From positions 3,045 to 48,874 of the forward strand of contig NZ_BBPO01000052.1 in assembly GCF_000787815.1 (NCBI RefSeq): a stretch of 45,830 bases of DNA, written 5' to 3'. The DNA comes from Streptacidiphilus neutrinimicus (GTDB lineage Bacteria; Actinomycetota; Actinomycetes; Streptomycetales; Streptomycetaceae). Shown here piece after piece: positions 37,096 through 45,802 of the stretch (positions within the stretch are counted from its first letter, which is position 1; each line of letters opens with the position of its first letter). The position numbers and the translations under genes were made by a program. A model generated the notes under the pieces. That model saw only the letters and a program-made list of their open reading frames with translations. It did not search any database and was not told where the DNA came from.

Positions 37096-39027
37096 TCAGC
37101 CGGGCAAGGTCCACTGCTGGTTGGCCCCGCCGGTGCAGTCCCAGATCTGCAGCCGGGTGCCATTGGCCGAGCTCGGACCGGTGGCGTCCAGACAGCGGCC
37201 CGAGTGCGGATTGACCAGCGAGCCGTCCGACCTGGCCTGCCACTGCTGCGCTCCGGTCCCGTTGCAGTCGTAGAGCTGGACCTGCGTCCCGTTGGCCGTG
37301 CCGCCGCTGGCGACGTCCATGCACTTGCCGAGCGCCTGCAGCGACCCGTCGGTGGCCATCGTCCAGTTCTGGGCGGCCGTGCCGTTGCAGTCGTAGAGCT
37401 GGACGGCGGTGCCGTTCGCGCTGTTCGCGCCGGCGACGTCGACACACTTGCCGCCGTAGCCGGTGATCTGCCCGCTCGGCGCGACCCCGGCCGTGCCCGA
37501 CCAGGTGAACGTCGCACTGGTCTGCGCGGGCAGGGTGTAGGTGAAGTGCTGCCCGCCCCAGTTGACCGTGAACGGCTCGGAGCCCCCGGTGGCGTTGTAG
37601 GCGACGACGGCCTTGGAGCCGTCCGGGTTGAGCCAGGCCACGTTCGGCACGGCGGTGCTGGCGGTCGAGTCGATCCGGTAGGCCCCGGGCTTGACGAACT
37701 TGGTCAGCTGGCCGAGGTCGTAGTACTCGATGTTGTAGTCCACCTGCCCGCTGCGCGCGTCGCCGTTGTGCACGGTGATCAGCCCGGTGCAGGTGCCGCA
37801 GCCGCCGTTGTGCGGGCCCATGTTCTGGTCCACGGCGAGCGACCACTTCACCACCGACTTACCCCAGTTCCGGGTGTAGTCGACGATGTTCTGCATGTCC
37901 TCCTGCTGCTGGTCGGCGATCCAGGTGCCGCCGGAGTGCTCGGTGTCGAAGGCGTCGACGGCCGGGTACGCGTTGTGGACGGTGGTCTGCTCGCTCGGGT
38001 CGCCGCTGTAGCCGTGCCAGGCGATGCCGCCGAACAGCGGGTCGTTGCGGATCGCGGCGTCGTTCACCGTCTGCGCGGCGTAGCTGTCGTAGTCGTCCCA
38101 GTTCCAGTCCAGCGCCAGGACCTTCGTGGTCAGCCCGGCGGCGTGGAAGGCCGGCAGCAGGTCGGTGCCGGTGAAGTAGTCGAGCCCGCTGGCGTTCCAC
38201 TGCATGGAGGGGTAGCCGCTGCAGCAGGTGGGCTCGTTCTGCGGGGAGACGTAGTCGATGTGGACGCCCTGGGCCTGGTACGCCTGGATGTACTTGACGA
38301 AGTACTGCGCGTAGGCGGCGTAGTACTGCGACTGCAGCCACCCTTGGCCGTAGGCGCCGCTGTCCTTCATCCACGGCGGCGCGGTCCACGGCGTGCCCAT
38401 CACCTTGAGGTTCGGATTGAGCTGCTCGGCCTGCTTGGTGAGGGGCAGCACGTCCGCGAGGTCGTGGGCGATGGAGAAGTCCGCGAGCGAGGGGTCGGTC
38501 TGGCCGCTCGGCATGTCGTCGTAGGTGTAGTTGTACCGGGCCAGGTCCGAGGCGCCCATGGGGTTGCGCAGGAAGTCCAGGCCGATGCCGTTGACCGGGT
38601 CGAACAGGTTGGTCATCACGGAGTTGCGGGTGGCGGTGCTGAGCGCGCCGCTGCTGTTCATCAGCCAGGCGGCGGTGTCGGTGAAGGAGGCCCCGGCACC
38701 GGTGAACTGCTGGTAGCGGGTGTTCTCGTCGACGCTCACGGTGGCGGCGGAGCTGCCGGACCCGGCGGAGAAGGCGATCGGGGTCTGCTGCTGCAGCCCC
38801 CGGGTGACGGTCCGTCCTCCGGAGTCGGAGGTGGTGGTCAGCCAGATGTTCACGGTGGGGCCGGCCGCTTGGGCGCTGGGGGTGGCGGCGGGCGAGGCGA
38901 GCAGGAGTCCGGAGGCGGCGAGCGCTCCGGCGAGCAGGGCGGGCAGTCTCTTGGACCGCACGGACCGCATGGACCGCATGGGCGAAGCCCTTCGCGTGGG
39001 GGCGGATGGACTGGGACGCCGCCGCAT
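37096..39027 (-). CDS. Secreted GH30 glycosidase with C-terminal ricin-type (CBM13) lectin domain
   Basis: The 643-residue precursor starts at ATG 39027 behind GGGAG; an internal ATG at 38979 is possible. A signal peptide ends near residue 54 (ALLAGALAASGLLLASPAAT then PSAQA). The catalytic domain has FTGAGASFTDTAAWLM, the acid/base Glu in IDYVSPQNEPTCC (E265), WHGY near 338, and the nucleophile Glu in AFDTEHSGG (E363), as in GH30 glucosylceramidase/glucanase-like enzymes. From about residue 512 comes a ricin-B lectin domain with three repeats ending AQNW, AQQW and NQQW. It probably cleaves a beta-linked glucan or related polymer outside the cell. Two strong palindromes lie in its promoter. 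Confidence 0.93.
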   Translation of the reverse strand: MRRRPSPSAPTRRASPMRSMRSVRSKRLPALLAGALAASGLLLASPAATPSAQAAGPTVNIWLTTTSDSGGRTVTRGLQQQTPIAFSAGSGSSAATVSVDENTRYQQFTGAGASFTDTAAWLMNSSGALSTATRNSVMTNLFDPVNGIGLDFLRNPMGASDLARYNYTYDDMPSGQTDPSLADFSIAHDLADVLPLTKQAEQLNPNLKVMGTPWTAPPWMKDSGAYGQGWLQSQYYAAYAQYFVKYIQAYQAQGVHIDYVSPQNEPTCCSGYPSMQWNASGLDYFTGTDLLPAFHAAGLTTKVLALDWNWDDYDSYAAQTVNDAAIRNDPLFGGIAWHGYSGDPSEQTTVHNAYPAVDAFDTEHSGGTWIADQQQEDMQNIVDYTRNWGKSVVKWSLAVDQNMGPHNGGCGTCTGLITVHNGDARSGQVDYNIEYYDLGQLTKFVKPGAYRIDSTASTAVPNVAWLNPDGSKAVVAYNATGGSEPFTVNWGGQHFTYTLPAQTSATFTWSGTAGVAPSGQITGYGGKCVDVAGANSANGTAVQLYDCNGTAAQNWTMATDGSLQALGKCMDVASGGTANGTQVQLYDCNGTGAQQWQARSDGSLVNPHSGRCLDATGPSSANGTRLQIWDCTGGANQQWTLPG

Positions 39028-41606: not shown

Positions 41607-41654
41607 GAGGACCAGGATCGGAGGCAATCGCGCGCCACGCGCGCTGAGGAGAGG

Positions 41655-41727
41655 CTCCCCCAATTGGACTCGAACCAATAACCTGCCGATTAACAGTCGG
41701 CTGCTCTGCCAATTGAGCTATGGGGGA
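41655..41727 (-). tRNA. tRNA-Asn (anticodon GTT), copy 1
   Basis: On the minus strand the 73-base gene reads tccccca-tagctcaattggcaga and continues with the anticodon arm gccgactgttaatcggc and T arm ggttcgagtcc. The anticodon is GTT. It matches the copy at 41757-41829 base for base. CCA is not encoded. Confidence 0.95.
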
Positions 41728-41756
41728 CTGCACTTGGGCACCGCATTGGTGCCGCG

Positions 41757-41829
41757 CTCCCCCAATTGGACTCGAACCAATAACCTGCCGATTAACAGTC
41801 GGCTGCTCTGCCAATTGAGCTATGGGGGA
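41757..41829 (-). tRNA. tRNA-Asn (anticodon GTT), copy 2
   Basis: Identical in sequence to the gene 102 bp away at 41655-41727, in the same orientation. It is the upstream member, so the shared promoter probably lies in 41830-41960 on the minus strand. Confidence 0.95.
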
Positions 41830-42494: not shown

Positions 42495-42609
42495 GTTTGC
42501 GCTGCCTGCGAGAGCGTCGCAGACCCTTCGGGCGGACGTACCCCCGCCGGGGAGGGGGGTTGGTGGTGATCCCCCGCCGGGAGGTGGCGGGATGAGGCAT
42601 GATCTCGGC

Positions 42610-44034
42610 ATGGCCATCGCCGCGGGCATCGACTGCTCAGCACAGTTCACGAAGATCGCCGTTTGTGACACCGAGACGGGCGCCGTGCTGCGCGAGAACC
42701 GTGCGCCGCATCCCGGTGTCGCCGCCGGGACCGCGCCGGCGGAGATCGATCCGCAGGCGTGGCTGCACTCACTCGGCGCCGCGGCCGAGGGCGGGCTGCT
42801 GGAGGGGATCGCCGCCATCGGGGTGTCCGCGCAGCAGCAGGGGCTGATCGCGTTGGACGCCGGAGGCGTCCTGGTCCGGCCGGCCATGCTGCGCAACGAT
42901 CCGCGGGCGGCGTCAGCCGCCGTCGCGCTGGTGGAGGAGCTGGGCGGCCCGGCCGCCTGGGCCCATGCGATCGGCGCGGTGCCGCTCGCCTCCGCGACGA
43001 TCGCGAAGCTGCGCTGGCTCGCCGACCGCGAGCCGCAGTCCGCCAAGCGCGTGGCGGAGGTGCTGCTGCCGCACGACTGGCTGGTGTGGCAGTTGCTCGG
43101 GCAGTCCGCCCGCCGGACGACCGACCGCGGCGACGCCTCCGGCACGGGGTACTGGTCCGCCGTCGAGGAGCGCTGGCGTCCGGACCTGGCCGCGCTCGCG
43201 CTCGGGCACGAGCTGCAGCAGCTGCCGACCGTCCTTGGTCCGTCCGAGGCCGCCGGGCAGAGCCCGGAGGGGCTGCTGATCTCCGCCGGGACCGGGACGA
43301 CGATGGCCACCGCGCTCGGGCTGGGGCTCGGCCTCGGTGACGTGATGGTCTCGGTCGGCAGCTCCGGGACCGTCCACGCCGTGCACGACCAGGCGCTCAG
43401 CGAGCCCGCCGTGTCGACGTACGCGGACGGGACGGGCCGCTACCTGACGCAGGTCGTCACCCTGAACGCGGCGCGGGTGCTGCGCGCGACGGCGGCGATG
43501 CTGGGCACGGACCTCCAGGGGCTGAGCGAGCTGGCGCTCCGGTCCACGCCGGGCGCCTACGGGCTGGTGCTGCTGCCGTTCCTGGAGGGCGAGCGCACGC
43601 CGCCGCTGCCGCACGCCGCGGGGACGTTGTCGGGGCTGCGGGTGGAGTCGATGAAGCCCGAGCACCTGGCGCGCGCGGCGGTCGAGGGCATGCTGTGCGG
43701 GCTCGCGGAGGCGCTGGACGTCCTGCGTGCGAACGGGGTCGCGGTGGAGCGGGTCTTCCTGACCGGCCCCGCCGGGCGGCTGCCGGCCGTCCAGGCGTCC
43801 GCCCCGGCCATCTTCGGCGTCCCGGTCGTGGTGCCGGCGCAGGCGGAGTACGCCGCGATCGGCTCCGCCCGCCAGGCGGCCTGGGCGCTGGCGGGCACCG
43901 CGGAGCCGCCCGTCTGGCAGCCGCCGTCCCCGCACACGGTGCTGGAGCCCGGCGAGGAGGCCGCCGTCGGCGGAGCCGTGCGGGCGCAGTTCGCGGCGGT
44001 GCTCAAGCGCACGCACCCGGAGCTGGGCCGGTAG
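42610..44034 (+). CDS. FGGY-family carbohydrate kinase, xylulokinase-like with altered active site
   Basis: The 474-residue protein follows the FGGY/xylulokinase order: AAGIDCSAQFTKIAVCDTETG (D8 in the first ATP loop), IAAIGVSAQQQGLIALD, LPHDWLVWQLLG, RTTDRGDASGTGYW, ISAGTGTTMATALGLGLG, SVGSSGTVHAV, and VFLTGPAGRLPAVQA. The TDRGDASGTGYW block is specific for xylulokinase-like members. Two key positions are changed: the catalytic-base Asp of the GxGDN loop is Thr (T230, loop GTGTTM), and the sugar-binding His in the QxHG-type motif is Gln (Q77). The protein may be inactive or have another role. ATG 42610 is preferred to 42592. It converges on glnK. Confidence 0.85.
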   Translation: MAIAAGIDCSAQFTKIAVCDTETGAVLRENRAPHPGVAAGTAPAEIDPQAWLHSLGAAAEGGLLEGIAAIGVSAQQQGLIALDAGGVLVRPAMLRNDPRAASAAVALVEELGGPAAWAHAIGAVPLASATIAKLRWLADREPQSAKRVAEVLLPHDWLVWQLLGQSARRTTDRGDASGTGYWSAVEERWRPDLAALALGHELQQLPTVLGPSEAAGQSPEGLLISAGTGTTMATALGLGLGLGDVMVSVGSSGTVHAVHDQALSEPAVSTYADGTGRYLTQVVTLNAARVLRATAAMLGTDLQGLSELALRSTPGAYGLVLLPFLEGERTPPLPHAAGTLSGLRVESMKPEHLARAAVEGMLCGLAEALDVLRANGVAVERVFLTGPAGRLPAVQASAPAIFGVPVVVPAQAEYAAIGSARQAAWALAGTAEPPVWQPPSPHTVLEPGEEAAVGGAVRAQFAAVLKRTHPELGR

Positions 44035-44059: not shown

Positions 44060-45714
<1,655 letters not shown>

Positions 45715-45757
45715 GCGGCAGTTTTTCCCGCCTCCGTTACCGTCGTCGGACAGCGAT

Positions 45758-45802
45758 GTTTCGCAGACGTTTCGTGTTGCGCTGATGTTTCGCACATCTC
45801 AC
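45758..45802 (-). promoter_or_regulatory. GlnR-type half-site array upstream of amtB
   Basis: On the minus strand GAAAC occurs at 45762-45758, 45773-45769 and 45791-45787, with GCAAC at 45780-45776 and GTGAG at 45802-45798. Neighbouring sites are 11 bp apart (5 bp plus 6-bp spacer), except for the 7-bp step between the two groups. This agrees with the GlnR consensus of two GNNAC-like half-sites per box, and with amtB being a known GlnR target in Streptomyces. Confidence 0.82.

Follow-up and report, generated by a model that had tools for sequence, protein, structure and literature searches.

Replacement of the catalytic aspartate in a xylulokinase-like FGGY protein of Streptacidiphilus, a putative pseudokinase of the Streptomycetaceae

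The window, a stretch of 45,830 nucleotides from Streptacidiphilus neutrinimicus (contig NZ_BBPO01000052.1, positions 3,045 to 48,874, of the 8.42 Mb, 184-contig assembly GCF_000787815.1), carries towards its end a gene for a xylulokinase-like protein of the FGGY family (Table 1). Protein similarity agrees with a Streptacidiphilus source, with 98% identity to S. melanogenes. The product is 474 aa long when read from the ATG at 42610; a second in-frame ATG lies upstream at 42592. FGGY_N (104.2 bits, gathering cut-off 28.8) and FGGY_C (62.4 bits, cut-off 27) were the only Pfam domains found in the protein, and no DNA-binding domain was matched. Against the xylulokinase equivalog model TIGR01312 it scored 323.7 bits, below the curated cut-off of 380.25. 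Its nearest solved relative in a HMMER search was the xylulose kinase 3i8b (E 1.7e-90), which we take to be a Bifidobacterium enzyme; 2itm, also aligned here, is presumably E. coli XylB. An AlphaFold model built from a six-row alignment was poor (mean pLDDT 47.3) and too weak for use. The small protein encoded just upstream is called YtxH-like here; Pfam gave no match for the window's own 97-aa copy, and a homologue at another locus (L102) gave a sub-threshold YtxH match (18.1 bits, cut-off 37.5).

Table 1. Genes and replaced active-site residues around the xylulokinase-like gene (positions in the window)
Feature	Position	Strand	Basis or remark
FGGY xylulokinase-like pseudokinase gene (putative)	42610..44034	+	Pfam FGGY_N and FGGY_C, TIGR01312 score
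A11 replacing N-terminal Thr of DxxT motif	42640..42642	+	motif spacing, genus rows
Q77 replacing sugar-contact His (GQxHG motif)	42838..42840	+	alignment with solved XylB
R95 replacing Trp of LLWND motif	42892..42894	+	alignment with solved XylB
T230-T231 replacing catalytic Asp-Asn	43297..43302	+	alignment with solved XylB
YtxH-like small protein gene, 97 aa	42083..42376	+	just upstream of kinase-like gene, same strand
PII nitrogen regulator gene	44060..44398	-	Pfam P-II; convergent neighbour of kinase-like gene
Ammonium transporter gene (amtB)	44395..45795	-	Pfam Ammonium_transp

A preliminary description of this DNA had placed threonines 230 and 231, in a GTGTTM loop, where FGGY kinases carry the catalytic Asp, and glutamine 77 in place of the sugar-contact His, within an otherwise intact reading frame. 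The residue numbering was right: nucleotides 43288-43311 translate as GTGTTMAT in frame with the ATG at 42610, and the frame is open. Both replacements were borne out by the alignment to 3i8b, in which T230 and T231 stand opposite Asp and Asn and Q77 stands opposite His; R95 stands opposite Trp, and the alignment to 2itm concurred on the replaced residues. R95 and A11, at positions that are Trp and Thr in the canonical enzymes, had gone unmentioned in that description; position 11 was judged from motif spacing to be equivalent to T11 of SePSK. The N-terminal Asp and the DWL, TDRGDASGT and GERTP motifs are retained. Another Asp at the catalytic position, which the preliminary description had named as evidence against its claim, does not appear in the alignment, and a compensating Asp next to the loop was ruled out, residues 226-243 of the translation containing no other acidic residue.

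FGGY kinases bind sugar and ATP in an interdomain cleft, and the two domains close around the substrate (PMC3245297). Mutation of D8, T11 or D221 of SePSK to Ala lowers its D-ribulose-stimulated ATP hydrolysis, and PMC4880283 cites the corresponding E. coli xylulose and glycerol kinase mutants as greatly reduced in activity. The window protein retains the equivalent of D8 and lacks those of D221 and, by spacing, of T11. As judged from these residues, the gene product probably has no pentulose kinase activity in Streptacidiphilus.

The gene was found in 14 of the 14 Streptacidiphilus genomes examined, and at the Asp column each had either Thr (G000, G050, G058, G066, G042 and G074) or Ser (G037, G062, G054, G030, G046, G019, G002 and G070). 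Because all 14 genomes agree on Thr or Ser and both flanks align, a sequencing error or frameshift is unlikely and was rejected, and the clade-wide conservation of the altered loop that had been proposed as a check was found in the form of TT or ST. Two of these genomes carry out-of-frame or partial copies: in G070 (assembly 76% complete) the N-terminus of the gene is out of frame, and in G074 (10% contamination) two partial copies lie at contig ends. Column statistics were accordingly taken over 12 distinct rows, leaving out L042 (G070) and the partial pieces L018 and L043 (G074). Residue 230 is Ser in seven and Thr in five of these rows, residue 11 is Ala in seven and Thr in five, and T231, Q77 and R95 are each present in 12 of 12. 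TDRGDASGT and D8 are invariant, as are D172 and D175, and GERTP is kept. Among columns at least 95% conserved in 39 canonical rows from outside the family's genome codes, 102 of 126 are invariant in the genus, versus 277 of 474 columns overall; the Asp and Asn are conserved in the canonical set by choice, because its rows were picked for carrying DN.

The same genome has one other full XylB match (L006), 55% identical to the window protein, so that the second, normal xylB which the preliminary description had suggested looking for is present. Its GAGDN, GQQHG and LLWND motifs are all intact, and it lies directly downstream of a gene that scores as a xylose isomerase under TIGR02631 (712 bits, cut-off 447). 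A third match was weak (C161, E 7.9e-5) and only a fragment. Among the neighbourhoods compared, the xylA cluster c22 occurred only in L211, L215 and L012, whose kinase genes sit with xylose isomerase genes that likewise pass TIGR02631, and was absent from all 37 family loci compared. A genomic link to xylA is usual for an active xylulokinase but is not strictly required. In L215 a ROK protein gene adjoins xylAB.

Across the Streptomycetaceae, 296 of 297 genomes had an XylB-like match at 1e-40 with five candidates scored per genome, a tally that counts any such match and does not itself separate this gene from xylB; the sole genome without one, G137, is 71% complete. We read 192 loci, 171 of them distinct, and a first tree was built from 164 rows, seven short or broken rows being left out. 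This tree contained a Streptomycetaceae clade of 95 rows, a sample biased towards best matches, in which 62 rows lacked the Asp and 33 carried it. Outside the clade the Asp was present in 69 of 69 rows, none of them selected for it. Counted by genus code within the clade, the Asp was absent from every row of g1 (13), g9 (33; 31 Glu, 2 Gln), g13 (2; Glu), g2 (3; Ala) and g4 (3; Ala or Gly), from 5 of 21 rows of g14 (Glu) and from one row each of g15, g10 and g3 (Glu, Glu and Ser), and it was kept in all rows read of g11 (2), g6 (7), g5, g7, g8 (2), g12, g16 (2) and g17. We infer that g9 is Streptomyces and g14 Kitasatospora.

For a second tree, 71 rows were chosen and the columns for residues 77, 95, 230 and 231 were masked. 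On this tree the Asp label needs six changes, five of them forced by starred branches. Constraining all 40 Asp-less rows to one group comes at a cost of 428 log units (p-AU 7.8e-28, an optimistic value because the group was defined with the first tree already in view), and the AU test rejected a single Asp loss for the whole family. Replacement of the Asp happened several times within the orthologue clade; we speak of changes because a change from Asp to Glu could revert. On the trees L120, L111 and L110 have long branches; G010 lacks GERTP and also has a long branch; and in G081 (C2:2556496-2557913) the gene is split across two reading frames, by a frameshift or a sequencing error. In rows L114-L116, L118, L119 and L125 of g2 and g4 the N-terminal Asp of GxD is also lost (GVHCS), which makes them more extreme than the window protein. 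Beyond the clade, the XylB homologues L164, L168 and L173 (families f37 and f17) read GAGDC with GQQQG or GQMQG, having Cys for Asn and Gln for His and possibly representing another substrate class. These three keep the Asp, so that changes of the His and Asn alone are no mark of a dead enzyme.

Coarse pairwise dN/dS values were calculated by the Nei-Gojobori method. In 11 chosen Streptacidiphilus pairs the ratio was 0.055-0.185, and for L009 and L010 it was 0.117 in the kinase-like gene versus 0.187-0.283 in four neighbouring genes. In disjoint pairs with dS of 0.1-0.8, the median was 0.194 (range 0.055-0.692) for 30 Asp-less pairs, six Thr/Ser pairs among them spanning 0.055-0.374, and 0.245 (range 0.075-0.491) for 16 Asp-bearing pairs; no difference between the 30 and the 16 was detected (Mann-Whitney p 0.39). 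For other xylB genes, the median over nine pairs was 0.312. Some of the pairs span two genera, and saturation of dS may inflate their ratios. The data show no detectable weakening of purifying selection in genes that lack the Asp. The earlier view that the changes do not reflect recent decay held up, given the presence of the gene in all 14 genus genomes, the low dN/dS and the fixation of the replaced pocket residues, and decay confined to one strain was ruled out on the same grounds.

With five candidates scored per genome, 13 g9 genomes had a single XylB-like match. When all candidates at 1e-20 were scored, 12 of them still did, and G218, which has three (it carries xylA and two further XylB pieces), was taken out of the set. 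Xylose isomerase was not found in the same twelve genomes in a search at 1e-50 with a Streptacidiphilus protein query and in a search with TIGR02630 at 0.001; G218, G066, G000, G058, G033 and G009 were positive by both. G066 was considered as a genome with xylA and no second XylB and was rejected, a partial second match adjoining its xylA at 1e-20. The gene is thus retained where xylose isomerase appears absent, but pentuloses could be reached by other routes. All 13 g9 genes read GTGETM in an open frame, with the His kept in 11 and Gln in two, so that the argument from isomerase-less genomes rests on Glu forms and not on the Thr of the window protein. Over 33 g9 rows D175 is mostly lost (17 Gly, 10 Ala, 6 Asp), the Thr of GTSG is Ala in 32, and the second Gly of the GGGAR adenosine loop (position 387) is Ala in 26.

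Neighbourhoods of 7-12 kb were compared for 37 family loci and six loci outside the family clade; at L206 and L207 the kinase-like gene had been missed in ORF picking and was found by tblastn. Genes of the dnaG or sigma-70 clusters, whose Pfam names were verified on two members each (L096 and L213), occurred in 33 of the 37 family stretches. The four without them were L087, L095, L098 and L196, L087 being the locus on the window's own contig, whose end lies shortly beyond the gene. In 23 of the 37 the YtxH-like gene is found 3-283 bp upstream in the same orientation, and in the other 14 it is placed differently or was not found in the stretch. Outside the family clade one locus of six, L213 (G323, loop GTGDNM), adjoins sigma and dnaG, and in the 164-row tree its protein (L137) branches as one of the clade's nearest outgroups; this one case suggests that an intact kinase occupied the dnaG/sigma place first. 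In five g9 loci (L197, L198, L200, L201 and L203) the kinase-like gene is separated from sigma by ABC exporter genes. The amtB cluster c14 stands between the kinase-like and sigma genes only in close relatives of the window (L088, L009 and L010), which suggests that the genus has undergone an insertion or rearrangement here, and with this restricted occurrence a link to nitrogen control was rejected. Links to the window's GH30 or LysR genes were rejected likewise, clusters c12 and c13 occurring only in the window and its close relatives (L087, L088, L009 and L010).

The preliminary description had suggested a regulatory or binding role, and we infer the same from the residues and their conservation. 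On balance we favour the view that this XylB paralogue encodes a pseudokinase and has been retained for some function other than catalysis; the grouping "FGGY pseudokinase or sensor" is our proposal, no such family being established. That the product instead remains a sugar kinase, acting on a different substrate and with a rearranged active site in which another acid such as D8, D172 or D175 (or Glu in other genera) takes over, seems unlikely. Those three aspartates and GERTP persist throughout the 12 genus rows, 33 of the 95 clade rows retain the Asp and many others have Glu, purifying selection continues, and most of the 13 g9 genes keep the His, all of which would suit an active enzyme. 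Loss of the base leaves low activity in some enzymes, and the Glu of g9, g13, g15, g10 and part of g14 (Gln in two g9 rows) might still act as a base. However, the genus shows joint replacement of Asp, Asn, His and Trp, g9 is mostly without D175 and mostly has Ala for the GTSG Thr and the second GGGAR Gly, and the state of the key column varies by genus (T/S, E/Q, A/G), which is unlike one new catalytic design. A slowly decaying relic, accruing losses at different speeds because another xylB makes catalysis dispensable, would agree with the several separate Asp changes, the long branches of L120, L111 and L110 and the split gene of G081, and the G010, G081, G070 and G074 lineages do look as if they are decaying. 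For the gene as a whole we consider this very unlikely: 296 of 297 family genomes show a strong match (in the count that includes any XylB-like gene and does not single this one out), dN/dS is low, with no detectable rise in pairs that lack the Asp over those that have it, the replacement residues have become fixed in the genus, and twelve genomes retain the gene with no other XylB-like match.

Among the forms that a non-catalytic role could take, a structural partner without ligand sensing, for example of XylB or of the YtxH-like protein, is doubtful. The YtxH-like gene within 300 bp upstream in 23 of 37 loci points towards such a partnership, but in the remaining 14 it is elsewhere or was not found in the stretch, and conservation of the cleft residues in the genus remains strong. 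An obligate partnership with XylB is unlikely, since in twelve genomes the gene is the only XylB-like match at 1e-20. A ligand sensor, proposed by analogy, is a tentative form of the non-catalytic reading. In such a model, a XylB paralogue, residing mostly at the sigma-70/dnaG locus in Streptomycetaceae, would have stopped phosphorylating pentulose while keeping the two-domain FGGY clamp fold; a small ligand (sugar, sugar phosphate or nucleotide) may still bind in the remodelled cleft, and opening and closing of the clamp may act through a partner protein in the manner of Gal3. A clamp that binds without phosphate transfer would be a natural sensor. The ancestral gene would have gained its second, non-catalytic function before the Asp replacements, leaving the catalytic Asp free to be replaced repeatedly by Thr/Ser, Glu/Gln or Ala/Gly, with selection still acting on the protein as such. 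The extension of this model to a XylB-derived sensor at dnaG/sigma-70 throughout the Streptomycetaceae, with the second function preceding the replacements, is speculative.

Compared with XylB (3i8b and 2itm), the window protein has the same two full-length FGGY domains, N-terminal Asp, DWL, TDRGDASGT and GERTP, whereas it lacks the catalytic Asp, the Asn, the His and the Trp, falls below the TIGR01312 cut-off and is not beside xylA. Gal3 of yeast is a sensor derived from galactokinase, and the logic would be the same if the window protein is a sensor: a sugar-kinase fold kept, catalysis lost and a regulatory role. Gal3, however, belongs to another kinase superfamily than FGGY. ROK-family repressors also use a sugar-kinase-related fold in regulation but differ in that no DNA-binding domain was matched in the window protein. 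SePSK is described in PMC4880283 as a putative FGGY sugar kinase of unclear physiological role, which resembles the present case; it has Asp at D221, where the window protein has Thr.

Among the matches listed, the open-licence literature held no earlier report of this clade. Matches for FGGY pseudokinases in that literature were unrelated, and it returned nothing for a Streptomyces xylulokinase with hrdA or for a Streptomyces sugar-kinase pseudoenzyme. Our guess is that SCO2462 is the S. coelicolor counterpart; it had no mention in the same literature, in which SCO2463-2464 is called an ABC transporter in work on SCO2464, and SCO1170 appears in work on the xyl operon. PMC9206652 counts two TIGR01312 xylulokinase genes in S. 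rapamycinicus and, in the passage concerned, says nothing of their active sites. The clade offers a replicated natural experiment in how a metabolic kinase may become a non-enzyme, as one set of orthologues has a full active site in some genera and in others one altered by different routes. If the proposed reading is true, these genes would be a naturally occurring series that traces the conversion of FGGY kinases into pseudokinases. The data also suggest that many Streptomycetaceae genes annotatable as xylulose kinase may not encode one, and such misannotation would affect metabolic models of antibiotic-producing bacteria.

Two further features lie upstream in the window, both on the minus strand. 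A GH30 glycosidase with a C-terminal ricin-type lectin domain is encoded at 37096-39027, and two tandem tRNA-Asn genes occupy 41653-41829. The repeated peptide SPIAQLAEQPTVNRQVIGSSPIGGA, found in overlapping ORFs at the latter position, is probably translation across the tRNAs and no protein.
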